From Bacteroidota bacterium (GTDB lineage Bacteria; Bacteroidota; Bacteroidia; 2-12-FULL-35-15), in NCBI GenBank assembly GCA_023251835.1, contig JAHEXZ010000035.1, forward strand, positions 1 through 47,992: a stretch of 47,992 nucleotides of DNA, written 5' to 3'. Made by a program: the position numbers and the translations under genes. Below the pieces are notes generated by a model. The model was not told the DNA's origin. It saw only the letters and a program-made list of their open reading frames with translations, and ran no database searches. Shown piece by piece: positions 7,401 through 47,972 of this stretch. Numbering within the stretch: the stretch's first letter is position 1; every line of letters begins with the position of its first letter.

Positions 7401-8006
7401 TTCCGCACCAAAATAAGAAGTGGATGGATAATAGTAATCAAAGTGACCGGGACAATTATACCCTGTAGGAGAAACATTTCCGAAAGCAAACCCTTTACTT
7501 TTGGCATTAATACTATCATTAAACGTAAGTGTTCCGCTACATTCGATAATAACAACTCCTCCGGTACTGCCATTCCAGGATGGACAGCTAACAGGGGCTG
7601 TAATAGTTGCATTCGCATATTGCGGAACTTTTATCAATTGCACAGAACCAGCAACATTATAGATGCGTTGCAGAGGAGACATAAAAGATATTGTGTTACC
7701 AGAAATAGATGCTATATGGTTGAACTCATAATTACCACAACTATTGAGGTTTAAAATATCACCAAAATTAGAAGTATTATTCGTGTCAATTTCCGCTCCT
7801 TTCATTTGTATAATTACAACCCTGTCGCAGCTGGCAAAAGCGGAAGCATCGGCCACTATAATAGAACTACTATCTGCGATAGAATCTACAGATGTATATG
7901 CATTAAGAACACCGGAAATAGCAGATGTTTGAGCAAGGGAAGAGAAGAATAAGAAAAAGGATACAGTAATAAAAAAAACATGTTTATAGAAAGAGTAAAG
8001 AGGCAT
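4413..8006 (-). CDS. Glycine-rich, seven-PKD surface protein with T9SS type B (CHU_C) domain
   Basis: A 1197-aa exported protein. Residues 1-25 are a signal peptide ending S-L-A-Q. Residues 30-215 are an unassigned beta-rich domain. Residues 220-410 are very glycine-rich, with several runs of five or six Gly. Residues 425-505 look Ig-like. Seven PKD domains follow (about 508-1102), most with the W-x-F-G-D-x-S-P motif and H-x-Y. The C terminus (1107-1197) is the gliding-motility-associated CHU_C domain, with the F-T-P-N-E-D-G-I-N-D motif and an I-F-D-R-W-G-N block. The architecture fits a large adhesin or surface-layer protein delivered by T9SS. The glycine region is encoded by GC-rich simple-sequence DNA. 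No enzymatic motif was seen. The ATG at 8006 is the natural start because the signal peptide follows it. Confidence 0.85.
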   Translation of the reverse strand: MPLYSFYKHVFFITVSFFLFFSSLAQTSAISGVLNAYTSVDSIADSSSIIVADASAFASCDRVVIIQMKGAEIDTNNTSNFGDILNLNSCGNYEFNHIASISGNTISFMSPLQRIYNVAGSVQLIKVPQYANATITAPVSCPSWNGSTGGVVIIECSGTLTFNDSINAKSKGFAFGNVSPTGYNCPGHFDYYYPSTSYFGAEKGEGVSAISLSKRNGMGKLGNGGGGGNNVNAGGGGGGNFGKGGNGGFSWEGCPLQDIGGRGGRALTYNNTLNKIYLGGGGGGGQQNDLQATVGTSGGGIVIIKANTLIGNGNTINAGAENTIAGGCDGAGGGGSGGTVLLDVNNFTGALNINANGGNGAITTCYAQGASGGGGGGCIWSKLSLPVNVSFNVDGGIRGIHGSGSQDGLPGDTLSGLSIVGTPFTPVLSPITVSPDDSICPGISILLNVSPNGAGYSSVWAPSTGLNDFSIFNPTATPISTTTYSVTVIDSSGCKTSDSVKITVYPKPTASYSSSTECSGTATQYTDNSTTASGSINSWSWDFGDASPVDFTSNPSHLYSGAGSYSATLIVQNSFTCADTITKTVNINFNPVANFTFLDVCFKDSVFFTDSSYVNFSASIASYLWAFGDASPTGSSQNSTHLYASSDSFDVTLLVTTNQGCSGAATKTVYIFDPPIADFTVSDVCLTDSAVILNTSLNPSMGTIASWTWNLGDGSPLNSADQNPHHLYTATGDYIITLISRSSNLACADTVTDTITVFPLPVAAFTVSDICLEQTMNFTNLSAITTGDTIFTWSWDFDDGSVLDTLQTPQHTYTNFGDYTITLVTTTANNCKDTATNTAIVHPLPVTLFTTNNSCQGSIAQFTDQSFIPANSTNDWLFSWNWNFGDNSAISNNQHTSHLYNPVGIDTVELKVVSDFGCADSIFKLIVINPNPQVNFTATDTTGCEPLCITLQNTSFVPGGNIADWLWNFGDDTFDSSSQNILHCYYNDTIFSSRLFSPTLTVTSDSGCVNSLTKNNYITVFPDPIALFSISPQTTTITEPSITITNSTTGANAWGWDFGDSQIDSVDNPLSHSYADTGYFLITLITSTSFNCSDTAYQTVTIEPDFMFYVPAAFTPNEDGINDTFIAKCIFANEFELSIFDRWGNLIYKTNSIDNPWNGKVNNKAESVQPDVYVYSITIKDSKKVKHFYKGTVSVVR
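7006..7013 (-). repeat. 8-bp G tract (coding strand) in the glycine-rich surface-protein gene
   Basis: Eight consecutive C on the plus strand give eight G in the coding strand, within a Gly run near residue 333. The gene also has CCT triplet runs at 7291-7307 and 7324-7337. The triplets change length in frame, but the homopolymer would shift the frame, so slippage could switch the gene off. Confidence 0.6.
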
Positions 8007-10530: not shown

Positions 10531-10854
10531 TGGCGATAAATTTTTAATTAAACTTCGGCTGCATGAATTTGCATGGAAATACAACTCATTCGCTCGGTAT
10601 ATTTAAGTAACTGTGATATTTATTACTGCCCAACCTCTTCTGCTAATAGCAGTAATTTATTCTTTTCTCATAGACTGGTATAATTAATTTAGTTAGGTGA
10701 AGATAATCTTTTAAAATTAAAAAAGCAAGAAGATTGGCGCTTATTTTAAGTGTTTTATATGTAGTAGAGCAAGACCTTGCTCTGTGAACACATAAGGTAA
10801 AAACTTAGAGTGTTGTCCTCGTTTTAAGATTCCATTTTGGAATTTCACCCTTTC
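10531..10854. other. Intergenic region between nrdA and the C25 protease gene
   Basis: About 320 bp without a convincing gene, apart from a possible N-terminal extension of the protease from a TTG at 10584. It contains a TTACTGC...GCAGTAA inverted repeat near 10622-10654, a strong 8-bp hairpin at 10766-10783 and a weak ATTCC/GGAAT hairpin at 10829-10843. The protease promoter and the nrdA terminator must both lie here. Confidence 0.6.
10766..10783. terminator. Hairpin downstream of nrdA
   Basis: AGAGCAAG, a 2-nt loop, then CTTGCTCT form a perfect 8-bp stem 72 bp past the nrdA stop. There is no U-run on the minus-strand transcript, so it may instead be a REP-type palindrome or a factor-dependent stop. 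Confidence 0.4.
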
Positions 10855-20679: not shown

Positions 20680-20733
20680 CTAATTTTCAATTCAATAACC
20701 GGAGTTTGTCGGTATTAAGTCTTTTATAAAATT

Positions 20734-21765
20734 TTATAACCTTGGGCAATTTGCCAACGGATTAGGCTTGCTTCTGCGAGCTGTATAGGTCAATGATATT
20801 TCAAAACCACCACGGGAAGCCGTTGTTGTTTTTAACCCGGAGGTATTAACATCATAACTTACACGTGCTATATAACTTCCTTTTTTAATGCCCAACTCTA
20901 CTATTGCTGCATCATTACTACGGTATGTAGGTCCAAAGATAAGATATGTATCTGCATCTTTCAGATAATAATGTAGTAAAAGCGTTGCTGTAAATGAATG
21001 GGCACTTGTTTGGCTCATATATAAAAACTTAGGCAGCAACTGCACTTTTTCATTTACATTTATTTTAGTACCTCCGTGTAAATAATATCTGGAAGGTAAT
21101 TTATTATTACTACCTAAAAAGGACTCTGTTGGCTGCGTTAGATGAAATGCAGAAAAACCAATAAATGGGTTAAAGCGTGAATTCTCTTTGGCATAATAAT
21201 ACAAAAAACCGGCATTAATATCCTCAACAGCAAAGCTTGTGTTGCTGAATGTTTCACCGCTTGAAAGACCAGCATCAAAATTTCCTCCATTAACACCTGT
21301 ATATTGATTACCAAAGGTAAGATCGGAAACATTTATACTCTTTTGAAGCATACCTGCCTGTACTCCTAATGCCAAATGATGGTTGTTTTCCTTATCAAAA
21401 ACCAAGTCGTACCCAAAAGATAATAATGCGCTTGTAACATTATAGCGTCCTGCTCCTGCGCGGTAATTCAAAACCTGTAAACCTACCCCGAATTTTTTAA
21501 CCGGCATATCAAAAGAAATTCCGGCTGTTGTAAATGGTTTGCTTGCCACTGCAGCCCATTGAGTACGGTAATGGGCATGTACACGATAATGCCCGTCAAA
21601 CATACCTGTCATAGCAGGGTTCAAAAACAAAGGAGGAGCATCATACTGTGAAAGCTGAAAATCTTGTGCAATAATAACAGAAGGAAAAAATAAAAGGCCT
21701 GTCACTATTCTGCTGCAATAAGCAGAAAACATGTCCATGCGTATTATTTCAATTATTTTCTTCAT
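20734..21765 (-). CDS. PorP/SprF-family T9SS outer-membrane protein
   Basis: A 343-aa outer-membrane beta-barrel. The signal peptide ends near residue 33 (V-I-I-A-Q); M10 and M12 are alternative starts. The family signature Q-L-S-Q-Y-D-A-P-P-L-F-L-N-P-A-M-T-G (38-55) is followed by Y-R-T-Q-W, and the rest alternates amphipathic strands. PorP/SprF proteins link exported type B adhesins to the T9SS and the motility apparatus; sprF follows sprB in Flavobacterium johnsoniae. Here the gene lies 31 bp downstream of a PKD/type B protein and 54 bp upstream of a PorE-like gene, the same logic. It is likely the dedicated partner of the 795-aa protein. Confidence 0.92.
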   Translation of the reverse strand: MKKIIEIIRMDMFSAYCSRIVTGLLFFPSVIIAQDFQLSQYDAPPLFLNPAMTGMFDGHYRVHAHYRTQWAAVASKPFTTAGISFDMPVKKFGVGLQVLNYRAGAGRYNVTSALLSFGYDLVFDKENNHHLALGVQAGMLQKSINVSDLTFGNQYTGVNGGNFDAGLSSGETFSNTSFAVEDINAGFLYYYAKENSRFNPFIGFSAFHLTQPTESFLGSNNKLPSRYYLHGGTKINVNEKVQLLPKFLYMSQTSAHSFTATLLLHYYLKDADTYLIFGPTYRSNDAAIVELGIKKGSYIARVSYDVNTSGLKTTTASRGGFEISLTYTARRSKPNPLANCPRL

Positions 21766-21796
21766 GTATTTATCTTTTATTTTCTTCCTTCTTCTC

Positions 21797-24184
21797 TTAT
21801 CTTAATAGTGTTACATCACCCGATATTTTATATTCCTTATCATCTTCTGTAACCCCCATAATAGTATATATATACACACCCACGGGTTGCTCAACGCCAT
21901 TGTATTTGCCATCCCATCCAAGAGATTGTTTATCAGATACAAATATTACTTCTCCCCAGTTATTATAAACTTTAAATTCCATTCTTTTATAAGGGCCGCC
22001 ATAAACATAAAAAATATCATTTTGCCCGTCACCATTTGGTGAAAAGGCTGATGGGCCATGAGGATCTGTTGATACAATTTCCTGCTGACAAACAGTATCC
22101 GTGCATCCGCTGGGGTCAGTAACAATTAAACAAACATCATAAACTCCTCCAACAGTAAAAGCATGCGAAGGATGCGATAATCCCGAACTGTTAAAACCAT
22201 CTCCATAATCCCATGACCAATCAACGGCATCAGTAGATTGATCCTGAAAAGTAATATTCTGTGCAATATCCGCTGTAGCATCACTTATAGTGAAAGCAGC
22301 TACAGGACCTGATACAAGACTTACTGTTTGAGTAAGGGTATCAAGACATCCTTGTGAGGATTGTACCACTAATATAACCGGAAACGAACCGCTGGAAGGA
22401 AATAAATGTGTTGGATTTGTTGCTGTACTTGATGTCATATCACCAAAATTCCAGCTTGACGATGCTATTGTAGCACTACTCACTGTAGAAGTATTAGTAA
22501 ATGCTGTTCCATCTTTTAAACAAACTCCAACGGCTGTATAATTTGCCAACGGAAGACAATATACCGGAATACTTTCCACATTGGAGTCAATACAACCATT
22601 ATCAGCCGTTACAACAAGGGTTACTGTTTTAGAACCACAACTGCTATAAATATGTGAAGGCGACTGAGATAAACTTGGAAGGCTTAAATCACCAAATGTC
22701 CAGTTCCAACTGGTAATACTGCCTGATGAAATAGAGCTGCTGTCGTTAAACTGAACCGCATCACCTGCACAGGCACTAACTGCCGAAAATGCTGCTACTG
22801 GCGAAGGTTTGATAGTTACAATCAAAGAGTCCTCAACCGGCTGGCAATCATTATTATTGCCCGACACGAATCTAAGCGTAACCATACCGGCAAGATTATC
22901 GTCAGCACTCGGGTAATAAACACCGTTAAGTGTTGTTGCATTAGGTAAAAATGTTCCTGTACCTGACGAAGACCAGGTGCCGGCACCCGTTGAAACAGTG
23001 ACATCCAATAATATAGGATTGCCTGAACAGGAACTATCTTCTGTCTTAATTATAACGGTAGGAAGTGGTGTAAAGGTTAAAACCAAAGAGTCTCTTGACG
23101 CTGCACATATTCCATTGCCCGTTGATTCTAAATAAAGAGTCACAGAGCCTGCTGCTGTGTCACTTAAACCTGGATGGTAAAAAGTGCTTAAACTATCATC
23201 ATCAGTAAAAGTACCCTCACTGCTTGTTGTATGCCATATACCACCCGTTGCTCCCGTTATAGTGGCAGAAACAGGAATGCTGCCTACATCTTTGCATACA
23301 GAAATATCCCCTCCTACATCAACTGTTGGAGCCGGGTTAAAAAATATAAGAACGGTATCGCTAACACTCGGACAATAAGAGGGCAAAGAGGTTAGTATTA
23401 CTGTATCTACACCATTAGCCTTTGCCGCAGCAGTTGGAGTATAAATTGGTGTTAAAGAAGGTGGAAAAATAATAGGAAAGAAAGCTCCGGAGCCACTCCA
23501 ATTCCCCCCCCCCGCATTTTGAACACTTCCGGATAAATTAACTGTTGTATTATTTTTGCAGCTTATAATGTCGGTTCCGGCATTCACAATCACCACACTC
23601 TGAATACCAACTCCTGTAGTAGTTGTATCCTTGCATCCATCAGATGATGTTACAACCAATATTACAAAAAAAGCCTGATTTCCTAAACTATACGTATGCG
23701 AAGTGTTTTGTAAAGCGGAAGTATCGCTATTGCCAGTTTCACCAAAGTCCCAATGCCAGTTAGTAATTGTACCACCACCGGGGCCCACTACCGAAGTATC
23801 ATTAAACAGCACGGAGTTGGTTACACATTGAGGTGCATTACTGGTGAAACCGGCAGTAACAAAAGCCATATTTACCAATGTTGTAAATGTATCTGCACAG
23901 CCGGTTCCTTTGTCAACAATTAACATTGCTGTATAGCTGCCCAGTGCAGGATAAGTATATGCTGGCGGATTTTGAAGATTGGAAGTATCTCCCAGTGTGG
24001 CACCATCACCAAAATCCCAAAAATAAGTTGTTGCACCTACTGAAGTGTTTACAAATGAAATGGTTTTATTGTTACATGCGCCAGCTACTGTAGTAAAACG
24101 GGCTGTATCTCCCGGGCAACTGGCAAAAGAAATTAGAGGGCCAAAAAATATGAGGATATATAATAAGAGGAACTTATTCTTCAT
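21797..24184 (-). CDS. PKD-repeat surface protein with T9SS type B domain (partner of PorP/SprF-like protein)
   Basis: A 795-aa exported protein with a signal peptide at 1-21. There are two PKD domains near the start (about 30-190, with Y-F-W-D-F-G-D-G), then three Ig-like modules of about 90 aa (V-D-V-G-G-D-I-S-V-C type, about 195-460), then three more PKD domains (about 462-705), then a CHU_C type B domain (about 710-795, with F-S-P-N-G-D-G-Q-N-D and Y-N-N-W-G). It is first in the cargo/PorP-SprF/PorE-like cluster and is probably its adhesin or motility-like cargo. A 10-bp G tract lies in the coding strand at 23504-23513, in the first Ig-like module. The residues at the signal cleavage site (F-A-S-C) could also be read as a weak lipobox. 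Confidence 0.85.
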   Translation of the reverse strand: MKNKFLLLYILIFFGPLISFASCPGDTARFTTVAGACNNKTISFVNTSVGATTYFWDFGDGATLGDTSNLQNPPAYTYPALGSYTAMLIVDKGTGCADTFTTLVNMAFVTAGFTSNAPQCVTNSVLFNDTSVVGPGGGTITNWHWDFGETGNSDTSALQNTSHTYSLGNQAFFVILVVTSSDGCKDTTTTGVGIQSVVIVNAGTDIISCKNNTTVNLSGSVQNAGGGNWSGSGAFFPIIFPPSLTPIYTPTAAAKANGVDTVILTSLPSYCPSVSDTVLIFFNPAPTVDVGGDISVCKDVGSIPVSATITGATGGIWHTTSSEGTFTDDDSLSTFYHPGLSDTAAGSVTLYLESTGNGICAASRDSLVLTFTPLPTVIIKTEDSSCSGNPILLDVTVSTGAGTWSSSGTGTFLPNATTLNGVYYPSADDNLAGMVTLRFVSGNNNDCQPVEDSLIVTIKPSPVAAFSAVSACAGDAVQFNDSSSISSGSITSWNWTFGDLSLPSLSQSPSHIYSSCGSKTVTLVVTADNGCIDSNVESIPVYCLPLANYTAVGVCLKDGTAFTNTSTVSSATIASSSWNFGDMTSSTATNPTHLFPSSGSFPVILVVQSSQGCLDTLTQTVSLVSGPVAAFTISDATADIAQNITFQDQSTDAVDWSWDYGDGFNSSGLSHPSHAFTVGGVYDVCLIVTDPSGCTDTVCQQEIVSTDPHGPSAFSPNGDGQNDIFYVYGGPYKRMEFKVYNNWGEVIFVSDKQSLGWDGKYNGVEQPVGVYIYTIMGVTEDDKEYKISGDVTLLR
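23504..23513 (-). repeat. 10-bp G homopolymer in a surface-protein reading frame
   Basis: Ten consecutive C on the plus strand encode A-G-G-G-N on the minus strand, near residue 226 of the 795-aa PKD protein. In an AT-rich genome this is a conspicuous slippage site. A change of one base would shift the frame and cut the protein before its sorting domain. The tract is in frame in this sequence. Sequencing error in the tract length is a possible confounder. Confidence 0.75.
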
Positions 24185-26770: not shown

Positions 26771-29700
26771 CTACTTGCTCAGGAGCAACAAGTATCCTCT
26801 CTCATCAAACTGCTTACCGTTTATAGATTCCGCTGTTATAATATAATAGTAGGTTCCATCATCAGCGCCTTTGCCATCCCAGCTTTGTTTTATATCTGTT
26901 GATTCAAAAACCTTTTTTCCCCAACGATCATAAATTGTTGCGGAATAGGTAACCATACCTATTCCTGAAATAAGAAACACATCATTTTTGCCATCCCCAT
27001 TTGGAGTAAATATGTTTGGGATTGTAAGCTTACAATCCATAATAACATTCACTGCTACATAATCTGAAGCAGTATCACCACAAAAATCGGTTACCATAAA
27101 TTGATAAATATTAAGACCTTCTTCTGTTGGAACCACAGAAGCCATTGGTGAAGTAGGGGTATGAATACTATCCACCGTAGACCCCGAAGCGATAGTCCAG
27201 AGATAACTGTTTGAAGCATACCCTCCGGTACTTGTACCCATTAGAGGATATGTTGTGCCACATATCTCCATATCTTCGCCTGCACTCACGTTCAAAGGCA
27301 AAGCAGTAAGAACGGTTACAGTAACACTATCACTTACAGGCCCCGTTGTACATTCGCTGGTACCTGTAACAGTATAAGTAATAGTGGTGGTTGGATTAGC
27401 AGTTGTGCTTGCTGTATTTGTTGTTGTTAATGCTGTAGCCGGGCTCCAGCTGTAATCTGTCGCACCTGTTGCAGTTAAAGTAGTGGGAACTCCCGGACAA
27501 ATAGTTACATCGCTACCGGCATCAACACTGATAACTGCTGGAGCTGTTGCTGTAACATTAACAAAACCTGTATCCAAACATCCGCTTACCGTGTCAGTAA
27601 CAATCACATAATACTGTGTTGTTCCTGTTGAGGTAAGAACTGCGGGGGTCGTTTGTCCATTCGGATTAGCTACTGATGATGGTTGAAACCAGCTATACGT
27701 ATATTTTGTTGAATCAGGAGCCCCTCCACAATAATAAAAACGTGTATTGGTTCTGTCGTTGCTTGTTATAGGAGTTCCCAAATCAGGACATTGTGGCCCG
27801 GAATCGCTATATTTATATAGACAGGATGTAAAGGATGTAGTAGTATAGGGTGAAACACAGCTTTGAGTATAATTTGCATAGCCAAAAGTGCCGGGACCTT
27901 CTGTAAAACAAATTTCTACAACAAGATTAGAAACACCATCCCACTCATAGGCAAGATCAAACGGATGCGCATTCCAACCGGCAACCACATTATACGTTTT
28001 TGGGATATACACATTCGATAAACCACTTATCCAGTTACTCAATGATGTAGTGTTTGTGCAACCCATATTAATAGTAAACTCATGATAAGTTGTTATTCCA
28101 AAGATTTGTGTAACATTAAAATCAAGCTGATCTATTTTACCTCCTGTAATACCCATGGCATTTAATTCCGTTGCCCTGAATAAAAATTGGTGTTTCGCAG
28201 AAGTATACCAGTTACCATAAGGCGCTGGCCAGGTGGTGCTTGTGTTTTCTGTTGTTGCAGTTCCAATAGTGGCTGTCAAGGCTGCTGAACAGACAACCGG
28301 GCTTGTTCCGCAGACAGAAGGTGTAGATGTACCAAAAGTTACTCCCAACTGAACGGTATCACCCATACAAACAATTGATTCAGATGTATATGCAATAGGA
28401 TCGGGTTTGTAGCTTGGTGTAATGGTTATCGTAGCTGTATCCTTTTTTACACAACCGCTTGCCCCTGTCACTGTAGCAATAAAATTATGAACACCGGGCA
28501 CAGTAATCGTTGCCACAGGGTTGGTTATGGTAGTATCATTTAAAAAGGCTGCAGGTGACCACGCATACGTGTATGAACCTGAAGGTGAAGGAATTACCTC
28601 TAATTGAATAGGTGGTTGCAATAAACAGGTTATAATTTCACTTTGTGTTATTGTTGTTGTAAAATCAGGTACAACGGTTACTGTAACCGTATCTTTATTA
28701 ATACAAGTTCCTCCCAGATTACTTGTTACCTGATAGATTGTTGTAGTTGAGGGGGTTGCAACAGCATTTGCACAAGGATTGCATGAAAAATTAGTTCCTA
28801 CGGTTACTGGTGAACCGCTGATTGAACTCCAGAAAAAAGCACTGCCCCCGTTTGCCGATAACAAGCCACTTTGAGAAAGACATAATACGGTATCTGCAAA
28901 TGCATAAGTACGAATTTCCGGAAGAACCGTAATTGTTACAGTATCTTTTTTCAAACATCCGAATGGGCTTGTAATGCCTATCTGATAATTATATGTCCCG
29001 GGAACAGCTACTGTTGCCGTTGGATTAGCTATTGTATCATCATCAAGATAGGTAGAAGGAGACCACAAATATGTATAAGCGCCTGCCGGAGAGCCACTTA
29101 TGCTCATTTGAACAGTTTGTTGTAAACACAATGTGTCAGTTGTTTGAGTGGTAGTAAATGAAAAATCAGGCACAACAGTTACTGTTACAGTATCCCTGTT
29201 TACGCAAGTTCCACTGAGATTGCTTATTACTTCATAGGTTGTTGTGCTGGCTGGTGATGCAACGGGGTTTGCACAGGGATTGCATGAAAAATTAGTTCCC
29301 ACTACCATAGGCGGCCCGCTAATAACACTCCAGGTAAAAACACTTCCTCCGGTACCATTTAACGTAGATGTTTGTGGGCCGCAAATTATTTTATCCGGGC
29401 CTGCAAGAGTTCGCGGCTGAACATTAATATCATAAACAAACGTTTGCTGGCCTACCACAGGACATGCACCATCATTAACCGTAACACTAAAGGATGTGTT
29501 TGTATTTGCACTGCCTCCGGGAGCCACCCAACTGATGGTTGCAGTCATTGGATTAGCCCCGGATGTAATAAGTGTTGATCCCGGAAGTACTGTTGCAATA
29601 TTAGAAACAAGGGATAAACTATCCAATGAATCAGGATCAGTATAAGTGGCCGTAAAAGTAAAGGATGCTCCCTCACACATTTCAATAGCAAATGGCCCGC

Positions 29701-30583
29701 TTTGAACAGCTGTACCAGTAAGATTTGAAATCGCTCCTGCTCCCGGATCCGGCACTAAGTTTCCACAACTCTGTACTACAAATTGTATATCACGCATCAC
29801 TGTACCAATTAAATTACCATTATTGTCAAACTCTTCAACCAAAACAACCACTACAAAATTTCCTATCGTTGTTGGCGTAAAGGATAATACTCCTGTTACA
29901 GGATTGACAGTAATACCTGGTATAGGAGATGTTGCGGAATATCCGGCATTATATGTAAGGTTAATAGGGCCTGCATCCATAGCATCAATTAATGAATAAT
30001 GCAATGAATCACCATCCGTCTCCACAATTCCATAATTATAGTTTACAGCCTGATTAGCACATACATAAGGTATTGGCTGAGAAGTAAAAGAAGGAGAATT
30101 GTTACAAGGTGCTGTTGCACTGTTTAATGTGGCCTGAATATAACTTCCTTGAGAATCAGGAGACTGCAAATTTAAAATGGCACTGTTTCTGCAGCAGGTA
30201 TTCCAGCTCATTGTCCAGGTATCACATAAGGTATCAAGTGTTACCACCCCAGTATAATAAAACACCCACATCCCGGGCAAATTCCCTCCATTACAAGTAC
30301 TGTTATTTATTTGCGAGGCACATAACTGTGATATTTCCGTGCCTCCCGGATTCAGCACATCTACAGTTAAAGACGCAGTACTACCACAAGTGCTTGTAAA
30401 ATCAATCCATTGTTGAGCTCCGGGATCAAACCCCATGCAATCAACAAATAAATTTAAATTAATCTGATACTGGTTGTTTCCCAAACAGGTATAACTTAAA
30501 TCGCCACCAGCAATGTGAGAAGCTTTTATATATTGAACCAGGAAAAGTGTAAAAGTTAATGTTATAATAACTAATTTTTTCAT
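26771..30583 (-). CDS. Large secreted multi-Ig/PKD-like protein with T9SS type B domain
   Basis: A 1270-aa protein with a signal peptide at 1-22. The mature start H-I-A-G-G-D-L-S-Y introduces a Cys-rich domain (22-165) seen at the start of many Bacteroidota gliding-motility-associated cargo proteins. A cadherin/Ig-like part follows (170-390). Next come two tandem copies of a ~167-aa two-domain module (391-554 and 557-722), an inserted beta domain (about 755-960), two or three Ig-like domains, and a CHU_C type B domain (about 1186-1270, F-T-P-N-G-D-G-K-N-D and Y-D-R-W-G). No enzymatic motif was seen, so it is probably an adhesin or surface structural protein. The gene stands alone, not with a PorP/SprF partner. 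Confidence 0.85.
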   Translation of the reverse strand: MKKLVIITLTFTLFLVQYIKASHIAGGDLSYTCLGNNQYQINLNLFVDCMGFDPGAQQWIDFTSTCGSTASLTVDVLNPGGTEISQLCASQINNSTCNGGNLPGMWVFYYTGVVTLDTLCDTWTMSWNTCCRNSAILNLQSPDSQGSYIQATLNSATAPCNNSPSFTSQPIPYVCANQAVNYNYGIVETDGDSLHYSLIDAMDAGPINLTYNAGYSATSPIPGITVNPVTGVLSFTPTTIGNFVVVVLVEEFDNNGNLIGTVMRDIQFVVQSCGNLVPDPGAGAISNLTGTAVQSGPFAIEMCEGASFTFTATYTDPDSLDSLSLVSNIATVLPGSTLITSGANPMTATISWVAPGGSANTNTSFSVTVNDGACPVVGQQTFVYDINVQPRTLAGPDKIICGPQTSTLNGTGGSVFTWSVISGPPMVVGTNFSCNPCANPVASPASTTTYEVISNLSGTCVNRDTVTVTVVPDFSFTTTQTTDTLCLQQTVQMSISGSPAGAYTYLWSPSTYLDDDTIANPTATVAVPGTYNYQIGITSPFGCLKKDTVTITVLPEIRTYAFADTVLCLSQSGLLSANGGSAFFWSSISGSPVTVGTNFSCNPCANAVATPSTTTIYQVTSNLGGTCINKDTVTVTVVPDFTTTITQSEIITCLLQPPIQLEVIPSPSGSYTYAWSPAAFLNDTTITNPVATITVPGVHNFIATVTGASGCVKKDTATITITPSYKPDPIAYTSESIVCMGDTVQLGVTFGTSTPSVCGTSPVVCSAALTATIGTATTENTSTTWPAPYGNWYTSAKHQFLFRATELNAMGITGGKIDQLDFNVTQIFGITTYHEFTINMGCTNTTSLSNWISGLSNVYIPKTYNVVAGWNAHPFDLAYEWDGVSNLVVEICFTEGPGTFGYANYTQSCVSPYTTTSFTSCLYKYSDSGPQCPDLGTPITSNDRTNTRFYYCGGAPDSTKYTYSWFQPSSVANPNGQTTPAVLTSTGTTQYYVIVTDTVSGCLDTGFVNVTATAPAVISVDAGSDVTICPGVPTTLTATGATDYSWSPATALTTTNTASTTANPTTTITYTVTGTSECTTGPVSDSVTVTVLTALPLNVSAGEDMEICGTTYPLMGTSTGGYASNSYLWTIASGSTVDSIHTPTSPMASVVPTEEGLNIYQFMVTDFCGDTASDYVAVNVIMDCKLTIPNIFTPNGDGKNDVFLISGIGMVTYSATIYDRWGKKVFESTDIKQSWDGKGADDGTYYYIITAESINGKQFDERGYLLLLSK
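28418..29413 (-). repeat. Tandem duplication of a ~167-aa two-domain module
   Basis: Residues 391-554 and 557-722 of the 1270-aa protein share the order G-T-N-F-S-C-N-P-C-A-N, then T-T-x-Y-x-V-x-S-N-L-x-G-T-C, D-T-V-T-V-T-V-V-P-D-F, Y-x-W-S-P, and K-K-D-T-x-T-I-T. The blocks recur with a 167-residue period, so a whole unit was duplicated. Confidence 0.85.
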
Positions 30584-35223: not shown

Positions 35224-35303
35224 ACCTCAAAGGTAAGCATTAATTCAGCGAAAGAGTCTGGGTTAACAAAAATTAAAAAAAACTTTTATAGTGCAACCAA
35301 ATA

Positions 35304-35317
35304 ATGCAACTTTGCAT
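35304..35317. promoter_or_regulatory. Candidate promoter/operator palindrome before the ECF sigma gene
   Basis: ATGCAacttTGCAT is a perfect 5-bp-arm palindrome 21 bp before the sigma ATG. It overlaps CAACTTTG (35307-35314), one mismatch from the Bacteroidota -7 element TAnnTTTG. GCAAC also occurs 13 bp upstream, so the region could be an autoregulated promoter. Weak evidence. Confidence 0.35.
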
Positions 35318-35338
35318 CTCACCCACAGAACTTAACCT

Positions 35339-35863
35339 ATGACAGATGAAGAGATAGTTAAAGGATGTATCAATAAGAATCCCGTTGCACAAAAAAACTT
35401 ATACGATAAGTTTGCACGTAAAATGATGGGCGTTTGTTTAAGGTATTCTGAGAGTCTGGAAGAAGCCGAAGATGTTCTTCAAAACGGATTTATCACGGTG
35501 TTCGAAAACATAGCTACATTTAAAGGGCTTGGTTCTTTTGAAGGATGGGTTAGAAAAATTATGGTAAATACGGCCCTTACCAATATCAGAAAAAATAAAA
35601 AATTCAAACAAAATATTGCACTGGATAATGTAAGTTTTATGCTGCCTTCTACTAATCATGTATCAGAGAATTTTGCAGCCAATGAATTACTAAAACTGAT
35701 TAAAACATTACCACCCGGCTTTAGAACAGTTTTTAATTTATACGCAATAGAAGGATATTCTCATAAAGAAATCGGGGAAATGCTTAATATTTCAGAGGGC
35801 ACTTCAAAATCCCAATATTCACGAGCAAAAGCTCATTTGCAAAAAATGATTCCTAACAGATAA
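35339..35863 (+). CDS. ECF-type RNA polymerase sigma factor (sigma-70 family)
   Basis: A 174-aa sigma factor with regions 2 and 4 only. Region 2 spans about 20-90, with the D-V-L-Q-N-G-F-I-T-V-F block. Region 4 spans about 113-170, with L-P-P-G-F-R-T-V-F-N-L and the helix-turn-helix H-K-E-I-G-E-M-L-N-I-S-E-G-T-S-K-S. It would direct RNA polymerase to an envelope-related regulon. The next gene starts 12 bp after its stop and encodes a membrane protein with an anti-sigma-like layout, so the pair is probably one unit. No target promoters can be identified from this window. Confidence 0.94.
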   Translation: MTDEEIVKGCINKNPVAQKNLYDKFARKMMGVCLRYSESLEEAEDVLQNGFITVFENIATFKGLGSFEGWVRKIMVNTALTNIRKNKKFKQNIALDNVSFMLPSTNHVSENFAANELLKLIKTLPPGFRTVFNLYAIEGYSHKEIGEMLNISEGTSKSQYSRAKAHLQKMIPNR

Positions 35864-35875
35864 AAAATAGAGAAC

Positions 35876-36808
35876 ATGAAACAAAACGATGATATAGAAA
35901 ATGTATTCAAAAAATCATTTGAAAATTATGAACCGGAGGTAAGGCCAAAGGTATGGAAAAACATTCGTATTGGCCTCAAATGGGGAAGTTTAGCTTTTTT
36001 TATCAATGCTCTTATAAATAAAATCGGTACTACAGCCATTGTAATTGCTGTTTCATCTGTAGCAGCTATTATAGGCGTTATATCATTTATGAATTGGGAT
36101 ACCGATAAAAAACAAGAAACGGCTCTTGAAACTCCATCAACAACTATTTCTCAAACGTCCACCATTGCGGATAAAGAACATGTCAGTACAACCGAAAACA
36201 ATACAGCAGAAGGTCATGAATCGATATCAAATACGGAAATTAAGCCTGTTAAGGAAGCTGCAGAAAAAACGGAAGCCGGCAAAAATATCATTATAGATGA
36301 GAATGTTGCATCTATTGCTGCAAATCAGATTAGCGGAACAGCACCGCTGATTATTGATTTTTCCAACACAGGAAGTGGCAAAACAAATAAATGGATATTT
36401 AGCGATAATAAAAACACAATTGGTGTATCAAATCCTGTACATATTTTTGAAACCGCTGGCACTTATTCTGTCAGACTTAACTCAACTGATGCGTCAGGGA
36501 AAACGGATACAGACACAATTACAGTGGAAGTTACAGGAAACGCACCGGCAGCAATAGAGTTTTCTCCGGATGGAGATGGTGTTAATGACGCATTTAAGTT
36601 TGATATTCAGAAAATTGTTTCTATGAGCTCTAAAATTTTTGATAAAAACGGTGTTACAGTATATAAATCTGAAAGTGCCGGAGCCTGGGATGGAAAAGAT
36701 TTACAGGGTAGAGATGCGGCAGAAGGCACTTACTTTTATACAGTACATGCCGAAGGGGCTAATGGAAAAAAATACGATAAAAAAGGACTTATAAATCTTA
36801 AAAGATAA
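35876..36808 (+). CDS. Putative anti-sigma-like membrane protein with PKD and T9SS type B (CHU_C) domains
   Basis: A 310-aa protein. The first 45 residues are cytoplasmic-like, with an E-N-V-F-K-K-S-F-E-N-Y-E-P-E-V-R-P-x-V-W motif like that of membrane proteins paired with ECF sigma factors in Bacteroidota. One membrane segment lies at about 52-71. A Ser/Thr/Glu linker follows (75-140), then a PKD-like domain (145-220), then a CHU_C domain (225-310, F-S-P-D-G-D-G-V-N-D and A-W-D-G-K-D). Unlike the cargo proteins here it has no cleavable signal peptide, so the CHU_C domain is tethered in the periplasm. It may hold the sigma factor and sense the T9SS or the envelope. The domain calls are firm; the anti-sigma role is inference. 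Confidence 0.8.
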   Translation: MKQNDDIENVFKKSFENYEPEVRPKVWKNIRIGLKWGSLAFFINALINKIGTTAIVIAVSSVAAIIGVISFMNWDTDKKQETALETPSTTISQTSTIADKEHVSTTENNTAEGHESISNTEIKPVKEAAEKTEAGKNIIIDENVASIAANQISGTAPLIIDFSNTGSGKTNKWIFSDNKNTIGVSNPVHIFETAGTYSVRLNSTDASGKTDTDTITVEVTGNAPAAIEFSPDGDGVNDAFKFDIQKIVSMSSKIFDKNGVTVYKSESAGAWDGKDLQGRDAAEGTYFYTVHAEGANGKKYDKKGLINLKR

Positions 36809-36817
36809 AACTCAAAC

Positions 36818-36945
36818 AGGCTGTCTAGAAAGTCACAAATCAGGAATCGTCATTGCGAACGAAGTGAAGCAATCTCACAACAAACAGGAAGATTGGTTCG
36901 ACTAAAAAGTCTCGCAATGACGTTTTTAAGATTTTTAGACAGCCT
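36818..36945. mobile_element. 128-bp palindromic MITE-like element between convergent genes
   Basis: AGGCTGTCTA at 36818-36827 is matched by TAGACAGCCT at 36936-36945. Inside, CGTCATTGCGA (36848-36858) pairs with TCGCAATGACG (36912-36922), enclosing AAGCAATCTC. It starts 9 bp past the stop of the anti-sigma-like gene and ends 50 bp before the stop of the rluB-like gene, so as RNA it could end both transcripts. The outer ends resemble a common IS-type terminal repeat, from memory. Confidence 0.7.
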
Positions 36946-36995
36946 CTTGAAATGGCAAATAAAATTCGCGCTCAGTCGAGAGAGAAGGGCTGGGA

Positions 36996-38860: not shown

Positions 38861-41800
38861 ATGCTAAATAAAATTATTGCATTTTCAATAAAGAACAAGC
38901 TCATCATTGGAATGTTTACTATTGCTCTAATTTGTTACGGAGCTTATGAAACCACACGACTGCCTATTGATGCTGTTCCGGATATTACCAACAACCAGGT
39001 ACAGGTTATTACAGTAGCTCCTTCATTCGGTGCAAACGATATAGAACGGTTAGTTACATTTCCAATAGAACAAGCCAACAGTAATATAGACGGAATAGAA
39101 GAGATACGAAGTTTCTCCCGGTTTGGATTATCTGTAGTGACCATTGTTTTTGATGACCAAACGGATGTTTACTGGGCACGGCAACAGGTAACAGAACGAT
39201 TACAAAATATCCAATCACAAATACCGAAATATATTGGTACGCCTGAATTGGGTCCCATCACTACAGGACTTGGTGAAATATATCAATATGTGGTTCGACC
39301 CAAAAAAGGATATGAAAACAAATACAATGAAACAGAATTGCGTACCATACAGGATTGGGTTATACGCAGGCAACTGCTGGGTATAAAAGGTGTTGCCGAA
39401 GTAAGCAGCTTTGGAGGTAAGCTGAAACAGTATGAAGTTGGTGTTGACCCAAATAAGTTACAATCATTGAATGTTACTATTCATGATGTATTTACTGCAC
39501 TGGAAAATAATAATCAGAATACCGGAGGGGCATATATTGAAAAAGGGCCTGCCGTTGTATTCATTAGGAGCGAAGGGCTAATTGGCTGTAAAGAAGATAT
39601 CGAAAATATTGCTGTTAAATCAACAGAAAAAGGCATCCCTGTCTTTATACATAATGTAGCTCAGGTAAATATTGGCCATGCTACCCGTTATGGAGCAATG
39701 TGTTACAATGATGAAGGTGAAGTAGCAGGAGCCATTGTAATGATGTTGAAAGGGGCTAACAGCAGTGAAGTTATCAATAGAGTGAAAAAAAGAATTGACC
39801 TTATTCAAAAAACATTACCTGAAGGTGTTGTTATAGAACCCTTCCTTGATCGTACCAAAATGGTAAACAACGCTATCAAAACGGTTGAAACCAACCTAAT
39901 GGAAGGTGCCCTGATAGTAGTATTTATTTTGGTGCTGCTGCTTGGCAATTTCAGAGCAGGTCTGCTGGTAGCATCGGTTATTCCCCTGGCCATGCTTTTT
40001 GCAGTAATTATGATGAACCTGTTTGGGGTAAGTGGTAATCTGATGAGCCTGGGAGCGCTCGACTTTGGTTTGATTGTGGATGGAGCAGTAATTATTGTGG
40101 AAGCTGTTATGCACCAGCTAATGTATAACAAAGTCACTTTTGCTGCCGGCTATGTTTCGCAAGAACAAATGGACCAACAGGTGAATAGTGCAGCCGGAAA
40201 AATGATGAATAGTGCTGTATTCGGGCAGATTATAATTCTTATTGTATACCTCCCTATTTTCACGTTACAGGGAATAGAAGGTAAAATGTTTAAACCCATG
40301 GCTCAAACAGTTGCTTTTGCTCTGGCAGGTGCCTTTATTCTGTCACTCACATACATTCCGATGATGAGTTCGCTGATAATAAGTAAAAGAATAAAAAAAC
40401 AAAAGAATTTGTCGGACAGGCTTATGCACAGAGTGGAAAAAAGCTACCAACAACTTGCGTCAAAAGTAATACGAAAACCCAAAATGGTTTTATCCGCTGT
40501 TTTTATACTGTTTATTATTGCAATAGGGCTGCTTACTTTTTTGGGTGGGGAGTTTATTCCAGCACTGGAAGAAGGCGATTTTGCTGTAGAAACAAGGGTG
40601 TTGGCTGGAAGCAGCCTGAAAACATCTATTGATTTTAGTCAAAAAGCAGCCCACATACTTAAGTCACAGTTCCCAGAAGTAATAAAAGTTGTAACCAAAA
40701 TTGGAAGCGGTGAAGTGCCCACAGATCCTATGCCTATGGATGCAAGTGATATGATGATTATACTAAAAGATAAAAGCGAATGGAGCTCTGCCCAAACCGT
40801 TGAAGAGCTGGCAGCAAAAATGAGCAAAGCACTGGAGAACATTCCGGGTATAACCACAGGTTTTCAATATCCTGTTCAGATGCGATTCAATGAGCTGATG
40901 ACGGGTGCCAGACAGGATGTGGTTTGTAAATTATTTGGTGAAAATCTCGACAGTCTTGCTTTTTTTGCCGGAAAGCTGGGACTTATCATAAATACAGTTG
41001 AAGGAGCACAAGACCTGTACATTGAACCAATAACAGGTGTTCCGCAAGTGGTGATTACTTATAACCGTTCAATTGTTGCTCAGTATAATTTGAATATTGC
41101 TGATATAAATAAAACAATAAACACAGCTTTTGCCGGGCAAAGCGCAGGAATAGTAATGGAAGGAGAAAAGCGTTTTGACATAGTGGTTCGCCTGAACACA
41201 AAACAACGTCAAAGTCTGGAAGATATACAACACCTGTTGATTGCAACTCCACAAGGCAACCAGATTCAATTACACCAACTGGCTGAGGTACAAATGAAAG
41301 ATGGTCCCAACCAGATTCAGCGTGAAGATGCGAAACGAAGAATTGTTGTGGGCTTCAACACAAGAGGCAGAGATGTGGAAAGTATAGTAAAAGAAGTTCA
41401 GGATAAAGTAAATAAACAGTTAAAGCTCCCCACAGGTTATTATATAACGTATGGTGGAGCCTTTGAAAACCTTAGTGAGGCTATAAAACGCCTGATGATT
41501 GCTGTTCCTGTTTCATTAGTGCTTATTTTTATTTTGTTATATTTTGCTTTTCGCTCCGTAAAACAAGGTTTACTTATATATTCAGCCATACCATTGTCAG
41601 CTATTGGTGGAGTATTTTTTCTGGCATTAAGAGGAATGCCTTTCAGCATTAGTGCAGGAATAGGCTTTATTGCATTATTTGGTGTGGCCGTGTTAAATGG
41701 AATTGTATTGATTGCCGAATTCAATAACCTTAAAAAAGCCGGAATAAAAAATTTATACCGAATTGTTTTAACAGGAGCAAAAGTAAGATTACGTCCTATA

Positions 41801-43201
41801 TTAATGACTGCATTGGTTGCTTCTCTGGGTTTTTTGCCAATGGCTCTAAGCAATGGCGCTGGTGCAGAAGTACAACGGCCATTAGCAACCGTAGTAATTG
41901 GCGGGCTTATTGTTGCCACCTTTCTGACACTTTTTGTACTTCCTATCTTATACATCATTTTTGAAAACATGAGAAAACCTTCCTTTTCCGGGAAAACCGT
42001 ATTGGTTCTTTTTCTGATTTATTATACCACTCCATCCAAAGCCCAAAAAATTACATTGGAGGCCGCAATAGACAGCGCATTAACGAATAACATGAACCTG
42101 AAAAATGAACGATTAAAAACAGAATATCAGAAGAAGCTGATTGAAACATATGCTGCTATACCTCAAACAAACTTCATGGGTGAAGTTGGCCAGATAAACA
42201 GCATTTATACCGATACGAGATGGGGTGTATCACAATCATTAAATTTTCCTGCTGTATACTCAAATCAGAAAAAAATGTTGACAGAAGAATGGAAAGCAAA
42301 AATGCTGTCAACCATATTAAACGAAGCAGAAATCAGGAAAACAGTAATGCAACTGTTTTGCCACATTATTCTGCTGAAGGAGAAAGAGAAATTACTTTTG
42401 AAATCAGACAGCCTGTTTTCACAGTTTTTAGAAAAGGCTCGATTGCGCTTTGATAAGGGTGAAGCGAATATTATAGAGAAAACATCGGCAGAAGTCCAAC
42501 GGGGAATGATTTTGTTGCAATTGAGAAACCTGAAAGATGAAATTCAAGCAACGTTACTTCAGTTTCAGTTAATACTAAATACAGGAATCCTATATCAGCC
42601 AGTTGCAGATAAACCTATTCTCTCTACGCCATTGATAACAGATACAAGCAATTTGACCGCACATCCTATCATCAGGTGGTATGAACAGCAAAAAGCGATA
42701 ACCAGGTCTGACTTAAAATTAGAAAAATCCAGATTGCTGCCTGATATTAACCTGGGGTATTATAATATGAGCATGAAAGGTTCGGGTGCTGATAATGTTT
42801 TTTATACCGGAGCAACCCGATTCAACTCTTACCAATTGGGAATTGGAGTTCCATTAATTTTCGGTTCACAAAAAGCAAAAATAAATGCATCAAAAACAAA
42901 TGTATTAATTGCGGAACAGGAATATCAACAGCAGGTTCAACAAATCAATAACGAACTAAAAAAGATATTGCTGTTATATAAAAGCAGGCAGGAAACGGTA
43001 AACTATATTGAACAAAACCAATTGCCGGGCTCAAAAATTATTTCAGATGCCGGTTTACTCAAGTTTACAAAAGGTGAAATCAATTATCTTGAATGGGTAA
43101 TGATTAACAATCAGGCAATACAAATTCAAGGTAATTATATTGATGCATTAAGTTTATTAAATGAGTCGATTATCGAAATAATTTTTTTGACTACGAAATA
43201 A
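38861..43201 (+). CDS. czcA: Heavy-metal efflux RND transporter fused to a TolC-like outer-membrane factor (CzcA-CzcC fusion)
   Basis: A 1446-aa protein. Residues 1-1037 are a complete HME-RND pump with twelve membrane segments. D-F-G-L-I-V-D-G-A-V-I-I-V-E (401-414) carries D401, D407 and E414, the CzcA proton-relay residues, which suggests divalent cations (Zn, Co, Cd, Ni) rather than Cu/Ag. Residues 1045-1062 look like a signal peptide ending S-K-A-Q. Residues 1063-1446 are a TolC/CzcC-like outer-membrane factor with long helices and Q-S-L-N-F-P and G-I-G-V-P-L motifs. No stop or frameshift lies at the joint. The two parts belong in different membranes, so processing at the joint, or an unusually linked pump, is implied. 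The adaptor gene begins 10 bp later. I recall fusions of this kind from other Bacteroidota. Confidence 0.9.
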   Translation: MLNKIIAFSIKNKLIIGMFTIALICYGAYETTRLPIDAVPDITNNQVQVITVAPSFGANDIERLVTFPIEQANSNIDGIEEIRSFSRFGLSVVTIVFDDQTDVYWARQQVTERLQNIQSQIPKYIGTPELGPITTGLGEIYQYVVRPKKGYENKYNETELRTIQDWVIRRQLLGIKGVAEVSSFGGKLKQYEVGVDPNKLQSLNVTIHDVFTALENNNQNTGGAYIEKGPAVVFIRSEGLIGCKEDIENIAVKSTEKGIPVFIHNVAQVNIGHATRYGAMCYNDEGEVAGAIVMMLKGANSSEVINRVKKRIDLIQKTLPEGVVIEPFLDRTKMVNNAIKTVETNLMEGALIVVFILVLLLGNFRAGLLVASVIPLAMLFAVIMMNLFGVSGNLMSLGALDFGLIVDGAVIIVEAVMHQLMYNKVTFAAGYVSQEQMDQQVNSAAGKMMNSAVFGQIIILIVYLPIFTLQGIEGKMFKPMAQTVAFALAGAFILSLTYIPMMSSLIISKRIKKQKNLSDRLMHRVEKSYQQLASKVIRKPKMVLSAVFILFIIAIGLLTFLGGEFIPALEEGDFAVETRVLAGSSLKTSIDFSQKAAHILKSQFPEVIKVVTKIGSGEVPTDPMPMDASDMMIILKDKSEWSSAQTVEELAAKMSKALENIPGITTGFQYPVQMRFNELMTGARQDVVCKLFGENLDSLAFFAGKLGLIINTVEGAQDLYIEPITGVPQVVITYNRSIVAQYNLNIADINKTINTAFAGQSAGIVMEGEKRFDIVVRLNTKQRQSLEDIQHLLIATPQGNQIQLHQLAEVQMKDGPNQIQREDAKRRIVVGFNTRGRDVESIVKEVQDKVNKQLKLPTGYYITYGGAFENLSEAIKRLMIAVPVSLVLIFILLYFAFRSVKQGLLIYSAIPLSAIGGVFFLALRGMPFSISAGIGFIALFGVAVLNGIVLIAEFNNLKKAGIKNLYRIVLTGAKVRLRPILMTALVASLGFLPMALSNGAGAEVQRPLATVVIGGLIVATFLTLFVLPILYIIFENMRKPSFSGKTVLVLFLIYYTTPSKAQKITLEAAIDSALTNNMNLKNERLKTEYQKKLIETYAAIPQTNFMGEVGQINSIYTDTRWGVSQSLNFPAVYSNQKKMLTEEWKAKMLSTILNEAEIRKTVMQLFCHIILLKEKEKLLLKSDSLFSQFLEKARLRFDKGEANIIEKTSAEVQRGMILLQLRNLKDEIQATLLQFQLILNTGILYQPVADKPILSTPLITDTSNLTAHPIIRWYEQQKAITRSDLKLEKSRLLPDINLGYYNMSMKGSGADNVFYTGATRFNSYQLGIGVPLIFGSQKAKINASKTNVLIAEQEYQQQVQQINNELKKILLLYKSRQETVNYIEQNQLPGSKIISDAGLLKFTKGEINYLEWVMINNQAIQIQGNYIDALSLLNESIIEIIFLTTK

Positions 43202-45020: not shown

Positions 45021-47972
45021 CTATTTACTGATAATTATTTTTTGTGTATTGCTGTTATTTCCTTGTGTTACTTTTATAAAGTATACACCACTTTGTAAAT
45101 CAGTAACATTTATTTCTGTACTTAGTTCGCTGGTTTTTAAGGTTTTTATAGTTTTACCAAGCACATCGGTGATAGCAATAGCACTACCAGCACTATTACG
45201 GTTTGTATATACCATCAGCTTATCTTTTGCCGGATTTGGGTAAACTCTTAATCCAATATCATTTTTGATTTCACGAATACCTGATGGGATTTCAATTGTA
45301 TTCAATTCAGTATTTGTTACAATTGGTTCATTGTAATCGAAATAAATATAACCTGTGTTTTCCATCTCTGTTCCAGGTGTTAAGCCATTGTTAAGTTTTA
45401 TTTTGAACGTAACATACCCATGGCTGTTCATTTCATCTTGTGTGCTATCTGGCAACATAATGTTATCGAACATAAATTTAATTACACGATTTGGTAAAGT
45501 ATACACCTGCATACGGTGACTTGCATTCAGAATTTCTATACTGTTAATATCTAAATCCGTATCAAGTGTATCCAGCACATAAATGTTGTGTGCGGGGGCT
45601 GTGCCTGTATTCTGGAAGTTAATGGTATACGTTAATGAAGGTTCGTCAGCAGGAATAAAGCCTTGAGCACCAGTACCAGCAGGCAGAACCTCTTTGTTGT
45701 TAGGGTCATAGCTTACACCTATTGCAAAACATTGTGTTATGCTGTTGTTGCTCAAATCAGCATCACCATTGGTTGGAAGAACCATTACAGTGATACATGC
45801 TGTGTCTCCAGCCTGTGCAGAGGTACAGGTCATTGTATTTACTGCATAGTCCCAATAGCTGAAAGTGCCAATATTGTTGATGTCGCTCACATTCCATATA
45901 AGTGAATCGCCTGTAACTGTTGGTATTACAACATCGGGTGTGTTTCCAAATCCCCAGCCGGAAGTGGAATAATCAATACACGCATCTAATACCACTATTA
46001 CCTGGCCAGAAACAGCAGTTGTGGTACAACCTCCATTCAACAAGCCAATGTGTGGCAGAATAGCATCGGCAACACCCGGAAAGAAGCCATTCATCAATGA
46101 TATATGTGTTATTGCGACATCAAAAGCCCCACCACAGGATACACCAAAATTTGAAGTGGCAGTTCCTGCAGTAATAGTAACGGAACTATTACTGCACGTG
46201 ATTGTATAACCTGAATTTAAATAAGCAATTTGTATGGAATATGTTCCTGCGGGAAGGTAATTAAACGCATAATTTCCCTGGTAATCAGTCCATGCCCAGT
46301 ATGTATTGCTTCCCATTGTAACAATCACCGGAACATTTGCTATACCGGCTTCTCCAATATCCTGGGTACAATTATTATTACCGTCACCATAAATAGTACC
46401 GGTTAAACTACCACAGGTGGTGCTGCCAATAGTTACTGATTGAATAATACTATCCATGTAGCATGCATTCGCATCAATTAATTTTAAGAAAACAGTGTAT
46501 ACACCCGGAGCACTATATTGGTGAGAACCGTTTACGTTCTGCCAGGAACCAGAGGTGTTTCCATTGTGTTGAATCTGGATTGATTCGGTAGAGCCATCGC
46601 CCCAGTTAATTACCAATTGGCTGGAATCGTTACCAAAAAGGTTATCAAATCCCACATAAGAATAAAAATTTGCTACATCTGAAGCACAATTTCCCACACT
46701 CATTGAACTGTACTGAAAAGCAATGTATGAAGAGCATGAAGTGCTATTGACCGTTACATGAGTACTGTCACTATAGAAAATGGAATTATCACAGTCTGCT
46801 ATAATTATTATACTGTAATTAAAATCACCGTTGTATGGATATTGATGCGATATGGTTGCTATGGTTGTATTGCTCACCAGTAAGGTATCATTTGACTGGT
46901 TATTATAATTATTTTGCAATATCATTGTATATGTTTCTGAACTGGAAAACCCGCTAACAGTAAAGTCATATACCCCATTTGGTTGAGGCGTTTGTGTGAG
47001 CGTCAGTTGATTTTGCAGAGCGGTAATGGGTGCGGTTATGTTTACGGTAACGGTGTCATAAAAAATTCCATTGGCAGCGAGGTAAAAGGTGTTGCTCCCA
47101 GGGGCAATAGTATTTAAATATACACTTATAGGAATACAAAATGTATCTTGACCACTTTGTACACTTCCTATGTAGTTATATGCAGTATCAAAAATTTCTG
47201 CGAAACCAATACCGGTAGAATCGTAAACACAAAATTGAAGTTCACACCTGTTGTTTATAGTAGCTCCGTTTTGTGGTGAAACAAAAGACATTCCCGTACC
47301 GCCTTGACAGCTCATGACAGTTATATTAACCCATACATTAGATCCATTACAACCATTATTAGGGGTGATGATATAAGAAACATAGCCCGAATTTGGACCA
47401 GTAAGGGTTAATGTTTGAGCGATACTTGAACCAGTACCGGATGAAGCTCCAGTAACACCGGATTGTGAAACAGTCCAGCTATATGTTGTTCCGGTTGTTG
47501 AACTTGAAAAGGCAATAGAAGTAGTATCTCCTGAGCAGATAGTTTGAGAAGAAGGGGTAGCTGTTGCTACCGGGTCAATGTTTACGGTTATTGTATTAGA
47601 ATTTATACTTGTTCCATTTCCATTTTCCGCTCTTACTCTGTAATAATAAGTTTGTGTAGACAAAACTCCAGTTAGATTGAACGTAGTTACATTCCCCACA
47701 ATTGAATCACTAAAACCAGAGACAAAACTAGTAAAAGCTATATCAGTAGATACATCCAAGTAATAATCTGTTGCAGTAAAAACACTATCCCAGTTTGCAT
47801 TAAAGGAAGTGCAGGTAAAATTATCTGCCGCTGTTGCCATAGGTGCATTAGGTACCTGTGCAAACGCCTTGGACAAGCCAATAATACTTAAAAGAAATGC
47901 ATAAAATAATAGCTTTACGCCAAAACCTCGTTTTGACATTGCCGACTCCGGAATAGTAGTTGCTGTTTTCAT
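45021..47972 (-). CDS. Large secreted protein with FN3, Ig/PKD, SdrD-B-like and T9SS type A domains
   Basis: A 983-aa exported protein. The signal peptide ends A-F-A-Q at residue 39; M12 (ATG at 47939) is an alternative start. Domains in order: FN3-like (about 45-132), Ig-like (135-221), an unassigned beta domain (228-320), PKD-like domains (about 320-515, with N-W-G-D-G-S), an SdrD-B-like domain (about 520-612, starting T-G-T-I-Y-G-D-G-N-N-N-C), a DUF11-like part with Y-D-P-N-N-K-E-V (about 620-890), and a type A sorting domain (about 905-983, Y-P-N-P-A-K-D-K). The order is typical of surface-anchored T9SS adhesins. No catalytic motif was seen. It ends 22 bp from the shared terminator. Confidence 0.85.
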   Translation of the reverse strand: MKTATTIPESAMSKRGFGVKLLFYAFLLSIIGLSKAFAQVPNAPMATAADNFTCTSFNANWDSVFTATDYYLDVSTDIAFTSFVSGFSDSIVGNVTTFNLTGVLSTQTYYYRVRAENGNGTSINSNTITVNIDPVATATPSSQTICSGDTTSIAFSSSTTGTTYSWTVSQSGVTGASSGTGSSIAQTLTLTGPNSGYVSYIITPNNGCNGSNVWVNITVMSCQGGTGMSFVSPQNGATINNRCELQFCVYDSTGIGFAEIFDTAYNYIGSVQSGQDTFCIPISVYLNTIAPGSNTFYLAANGIFYDTVTVNITAPITALQNQLTLTQTPQPNGVYDFTVSGFSSSETYTMILQNNYNNQSNDTLLVSNTTIATISHQYPYNGDFNYSIIIIADCDNSIFYSDSTHVTVNSTSCSSYIAFQYSSMSVGNCASDVANFYSYVGFDNLFGNDSSQLVINWGDGSTESIQIQHNGNTSGSWQNVNGSHQYSAPGVYTVFLKLIDANACYMDSIIQSVTIGSTTCGSLTGTIYGDGNNNCTQDIGEAGIANVPVIVTMGSNTYWAWTDYQGNYAFNYLPAGTYSIQIAYLNSGYTITCSNSSVTITAGTATSNFGVSCGGAFDVAITHISLMNGFFPGVADAILPHIGLLNGGCTTTAVSGQVIVVLDACIDYSTSGWGFGNTPDVVIPTVTGDSLIWNVSDINNIGTFSYWDYAVNTMTCTSAQAGDTACITVMVLPTNGDADLSNNSITQCFAIGVSYDPNNKEVLPAGTGAQGFIPADEPSLTYTINFQNTGTAPAHNIYVLDTLDTDLDINSIEILNASHRMQVYTLPNRVIKFMFDNIMLPDSTQDEMNSHGYVTFKIKLNNGLTPGTEMENTGYIYFDYNEPIVTNTELNTIEIPSGIREIKNDIGLRVYPNPAKDKLMVYTNRNSAGSAIAITDVLGKTIKTLKTSELSTEINVTDLQSGVYFIKVTQGNNSNTQKIIISK

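Follow-up and report, generated by a model that had tools for sequence, protein, structure and literature searches.

A conserved ECF sigma factor operon with a membrane-tethered CHU_C partner and predicted promoters at T9SS type B cargo genes in Bacteroidota

In this study, we describe a two-gene unit in a Bacteroidota genome in which a gene for an ECF sigma factor, preceded by a predicted promoter, is followed by the gene for a membrane-tethered partner ending in a CHU_C domain. The unit lies in a stretch of 47,992 nt that was analysed as a whole and is referred to here as the window. Its features, together with one secreted cargo gene of the same window, are the following:

35292..35319, + strand: predicted ECF promoter TGCAACC-N15-GCATCT, an exact match, 19 nt 5' of the sigma start codon
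35339..35863, + strand: ECF sigma factor of 174 aa (Pfam/NCBIfam), mean identity within the genus 76%
35876..36808, + strand: membrane-tethered partner of 310 aa, putative anti-sigma factor, whole ORF
35876..35974, + strand: cytoplasmic head, residues 1-33, putative sigma-binding domain (conservation, AlphaFold2)
36035..36091, + strand: transmembrane segment, residues ~54-72 (hydropathy)
36095..36304, + strand: disordered, poorly conserved linker, residues 74-143 (conservation, AlphaFold2)
36305..36532, + strand: PKD domain, residues ~144-219 (Pfam, AlphaFold2, fold search)
36551..36805, + strand: CHU_C (type B CTD-like) domain without the RWG motif, residues 226-310 (Pfam, alignment, AlphaFold2)
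26771..30583, - strand: secreted T9SS type B cargo of 1270 aa with RWG present, beyond rnr

The sigma factor contains both region 2 and region 4, as judged from the Pfam matches to Sigma70_r2 (3.8e-14) and Sigma70_r4_2 (5.4e-16), and it scores 90.5 bits against TIGR02937, for which the curated cut-off is 42.9. The partner ORF starts 12 nt past the end of the sigma ORF. By coordinates, this is the only one of the 13 sigma-70 family genes in the genome that has a CHU_C gene directly 3' of it.

In the partner, the head residues D9, F11-K12, S14-F15, E19, W27, and N29 are invariant or nearly so, and AlphaFold2 places helices at residues 6-16 and 24-47 with low to moderate confidence, the latter extending past the head. 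Comparison of the head with curated anti-sigma families and with solved structures gave no significant match. The first hydrophobic helix of the protein is the one at residues 54-72, behind the charged head, and no cleavable Sec signal peptide was seen on inspection of the sequence. Residues 46-139 were modelled with pLDDT below 50, and the PKD and CHU_C domains with pLDDT of about 90 or more; these two domains are also found by Pfam (PKD_4 at residues 164-219, 1.6e-9; CHU_C at residues 229-307, 3.9e-15). The fold search was unspecific, its matches being PKD domains and tandem Ig-like proteins including PorU, and the CHU_C domain also resembles the Ig-like domains of FlgD. Against TIGR04131, the type B family, the partner scores 30.2 bits, which is under the curated cut-off of 35; some orthologues of the genus pass it (45.7 bits in G009 and 47.4 bits in G010). 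A sequence-only reading of this DNA had described an ECF sigma factor paired with a membrane-anchored protein made of a head, one transmembrane segment, a linker, a PKD domain, and a CHU_C domain without a cleavable signal, and both the pairing and the layout are borne out by the domain matches, hydropathy, structure prediction, and conservation.

The head is present in 33 of 35 genomes of the same genus. The sigma gene precedes it in all 30 genus loci that were read, at a gap of -4 to 15 nt, and each of these loci keeps the transmembrane segment, PKD, and CHU_C. Because the architecture and the adjoining sigma gene are kept in 30/30 loci, the two genes are a conserved operon and the pairing is not due to chance. 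Mean identity within the genus is 67% for the head, 21% for the linker, 59% for PKD, and 52% for CHU_C. Across the class, the head profile has matches in 123 of 395 genomes, and a related sigma gene adjoins the head in all 75 class loci outside the genus, which come from many families. The C-terminal ends of these 75 partners are CHU_C-like in 56 and longer and barrel-like in 19, the latter judged by eye from length and C-terminal sequence. The two kinds of end alternate on the sigma tree; the best tree needs at least 11 changes, although supported branches force only 1. In family f23 (L093, L096, L113), related sigmas with the same promoter have a barrel-like partner. Two other ECF partners of the window's own genome also look barrel-like, and another one (L038 1182-2030) has a similar head and a proline/glutamine-rich tail. 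The presence or absence of T9SS was considered as a further test of a link to secretion; it is uninformative, since SprA is nearly universal in the class (385 of 395 genomes).

The tethered CHU_C domain differs from that of secreted cargo in one motif. Alignment of 86 tethered domains from many families with 43 type B domains from the window's own genome found RWG in 0/86 of the former and 37/43 of the latter, counts that ignore relatedness. Tethered domains mostly retain PNGDG..D, W[DN]G, GxY, and the final strand. According to one report, SprB has five conserved motifs, each of which is required for secretion (PMC12618676). RWG is presumably part of one of the five, in which case shuttle binding by the tethered domain may be lost. 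By its sequence, the tethered domain is an altered cargo domain, not an intact signal for export, and with RWG absent it is better called a cargo-like decoy or mimic than cargo. It had been proposed from sequence that the domain could be a decoy cargo by which the working of the T9SS or of PorP/SprF-type partners is sensed; the tie to type B cargo stands, through the predicted promoters and the neighbourhood described below, and the notion of an intact export signal does not. A narrower idea, that the domain mimics the adjacent cargo alone, was set aside after two other cargo domains of the genome, c_L151 and c_L154, were found to be about as close to it as the adjacent one.

Genes for type B cargo adjoin the unit in many genomes. 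One lies 3' of the pair on the same strand in 16 of 33 genus loci (in two of the 16 the locus stops short of the CTD, and the assignment there is by identity to the other genes), and RWG is present in all 15 adjacent cargo domains of the genus that could be read. Among 19 loci of other families, type B cargo with RWG lies directly or nearly directly downstream on the same strand in 9, after one small gene in L221. These frequencies are far above chance, as type B genes make up ~2% of genes (gene number estimated). In the window itself, the type B cargo gene at 26771-30583 encodes a protein with 68-69% identity over its full length to those of L182 and L207, whose genes directly follow the pair in their own genomes; a search of the 330 nt before the window's gene gave no promoter site. 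Just 3' of the partner, at the place taken by the cargo gene in other genomes, are nested inverted repeats of MITE- or REP-like form at 36815-36948, with 17-nt arms at 36815-36831/36932-36948 and 14-nt arms at 36845-36858/36912-36925. The count of seven CTD proteins given for the window by the earlier reading is corrected here to six besides the partner itself, three of type A (575-4345, 8272-10584, 45021-47972) and three of type B (4413-8006, 21797-24184, 26771-30583). Elsewhere in the window, an OmpA/PD40 protein, a PorP/SprF protein, and a type B cargo follow one another on the minus strand at 18583-24184 as a cargo-shuttle-PorE-like set, and 38861-43201 is one ORF of 1446 aa that by eye joins a CusA-like efflux pump to a TolC/CzcC-like part.

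It seems that the same promoter form links the sigma gene to some type B cargo genes. TGCAACC-N15-GCRTCT is conserved upstream of sigma in the alignment of 32 genus sequences, its final part being slightly varied in a few, and it recurs 5' of sigma in other families, at 32 of 56 CHU_C-type loci and 3 of 19 barrel-type loci. We therefore predict from the ECF form of this promoter that sigma is autoregulated. The window's own genome has 78 type B matches, the partner included, and 30 sites with at most one mismatch. Ten of the 30 lie just upstream of type B cargo ORFs, with gene starts approximated from open-frame lengths, stop to stop; 0.13 would be expected, and P is 5e-17 by a binomial that assumes sites spread evenly across the genome. 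Two further sites precede a small secreted gene followed by a type B gene, the second step being by coordinates. No site was found at the 139 type A ORFs or the 17 PorP-family ORFs of this genome. The predicted targets are type B cargo genes.

The pattern recurs in two further genomes of the genus and in two distant families, and is lacking from two other genomes. In the genus, at the same limit of 300 nt as above, 9 of 37 sites in G010 and 3 of 40 in G009 lie upstream of type B genes, and at a limit of 600 nt the numbers rise to 11 and 7, several of them behind a small secreted gene. Of four genomes of distant families that were scanned, G341 has 5 of 32 and G050 4 of 47 sites at type B genes (two of the G050 sites at one gene), and in G099 and G116, apart from the sigma gene itself, no site precedes a type B gene. 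The pattern read backward was tried as a control and rejected because it is not fair in every genome, G099 and G116 showing an excess with no enrichment at cargo genes; the controls taken in its place were type A genes, the opposite strand, and shuffles. With a scoring matrix built from sigma promoters alone, a score of 10 or more was reached by 8 of 40 further type B regions (two of which may fall inside genes) versus 1 of 40 on the opposite strand, 0 of 18 type A regions, and 0.5% of shuffles. A rank test of all matrix scores, type B against type A, was not significant (P 0.21), which is the outcome to expect if most type B genes lack the site. On these grounds, sigma is predicted to drive type B cargo genes. 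Small secreted proteins of 122-160 aa are encoded between the predicted promoter and the gene of a large secreted protein in L230, L244, L260, L265, L267, L269, L293, and L297; those of L230, L293, and L297 form one family across two bacterial families, and those of L260 and L265 form another.

The operon, its architecture, the promoter, the targets, and the neighbourhood were all computed, and the architecture brings to mind the Dma anti-sigma factors, which consist of an N-terminal sigma-binding domain, a transmembrane segment, a disordered tether, and a C-terminal beta-barrel (PMC13088901). The reading we prefer, with somewhat more belief than doubt, is that the partner is a Dma-like anti-sigma factor with an altered cargo domain as its sensor, that sigma drives type B cargo genes, and that the pair probably reports the occupancy of the type B pathway. 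By analogy with ECF and Dma biology, we infer that the head would bind sigma and hold it at the inner membrane, while the linker would let PKD-CHU_C reach across the periplasm. Once freed, in whatever way release occurs, sigma would read TGCAACC-N15-GCRTCT promoters and turn on its own gene, that of the partner, and a set of type B cargo genes. Since the sensor copies, in altered form, the C-terminal end of the cargo itself, the likeliest signal would be the state of the type B pathway, either the PorP/SprF-like shuttles or SprA. The pairing of type B cargo with its shuttle is specific and shuttles are scarce (PMC12618676), so that a mimic on a tether could sense whether shuttles are occupied through contact between CHU_C and a shuttle. 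A free shuttle might engage the tethered domain, leading to release of sigma and production of cargo, and a shuttle occupied by cargo might displace the domain and leave sigma held; the sign in both cases is our guess. Against this explanation stand the loss of RWG, the lack of type B sites in G099 and G116, the neighbouring cargo gene of the window without a site, and the barrel-like partners of f23. Still more tentative is the possible extension of it to a secretion-capacity switch, in which the anti-sigma factor, with its disabled copy of the export tag of its regulon, would compete with cargo for type B shuttles, and type B surface proteins would be made only while shuttles are free.

Much of the same evidence bears on other explanations. 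The loss of RWG with the fold core kept, the degraded CHU_C domains of some relatives (L086, L119, L124, L135), the alternation of barrel-like and CHU_C ends on the sigma tree, and the resemblance to FlgD would all suit a Dma-like pair with adhesin-like genes of type B under its control and with PKD-CHU_C as no more than a stable Ig-like sensor of some cue from the envelope or surface (stress, ligand, or peptidoglycan), out of contact with the T9SS. We think this rather unlikely, as a generic Ig sensor leaves unexplained why the sensor matches in kind the domains at the C-termini of the predicted targets, and why cargo genes adjoin the unit. That the C-terminal end is exported through SprA and displayed outside, so that the protein spans both membranes and senses outside ligands, is improbable: the 129-288 residues between the transmembrane segment and CHU_C in class loci are enough to cross the periplasm, and Dma proteins do span both membranes (PMC13088901), but RWG is missing from every tethered domain compared, and a substrate with no cleavable signal peptide would remain anchored in the inner membrane as long as it occupied the translocon. 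Least probable of all, and by our estimate very much so, is that the partner merely shares an operon with sigma and is not an anti-sigma factor. The failure of the head to match curated families and solved structures would fit such a membrane protein; its invariant residues, the sigma gene adjoining in every locus examined across many families, and an overall plan that is the same as in Dma argue against it.

The look-alike of the export tag on the partner, together with predicted sites preceding genes of tagged proteins, suggests that these bacteria tie the production of surface proteins to the export pathway of those same proteins. This bears on the question of how Bacteroidota match the output of very large type B surface proteins to scarce and specific shuttles. 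The unit is a candidate for the switch involved: it is widespread, its promoter is named, its targets are listed by prediction, and its sensor is open to mutation.

We found no description of the partner architecture or of its regulon in the open-access literature, and the unit shares traits with three known systems. Like T9SS type B cargo that uses PorP/SprF-like shuttles, the partner has PKD then CHU_C at its C-terminus with core motifs kept (PMC12618676, PMC9143113); it differs by its inner-membrane anchor, the missing signal peptide and RWG, and its TIGR04131 score under the cut-off. The PorXY-SigP-PorA system of Porphyromonas gingivalis likewise ties an ECF sigma factor and a CTD protein to the regulation of T9SS genes. 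However, SigP is activated by PorX, has a different proposed promoter motif, and has direct targets that include T9SS component genes, and PorA is a separate CTD-bearing surface protein that interacts with PorV, the type A shuttle, and is not an inner-membrane anti-sigma factor (PMC4800418, PMC7712824). In anatomy, the unit resembles Dma: the partner gene adjoins an ECF sigma gene, the protein has a head of the sigma-binding type, one transmembrane segment, a long disordered tether, and a folded C-terminal domain, and its head profile also finds long partners with barrel-like C-termini. We have not filed the partner as a Dma member, because it ends in PKD and CHU_C whereas Dma proteins end in an outer-membrane beta-barrel. 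Moreover, the predicted targets here are T9SS type B cargo genes, in contrast to Dma1/2, which affect vesicles and polysaccharide loci.
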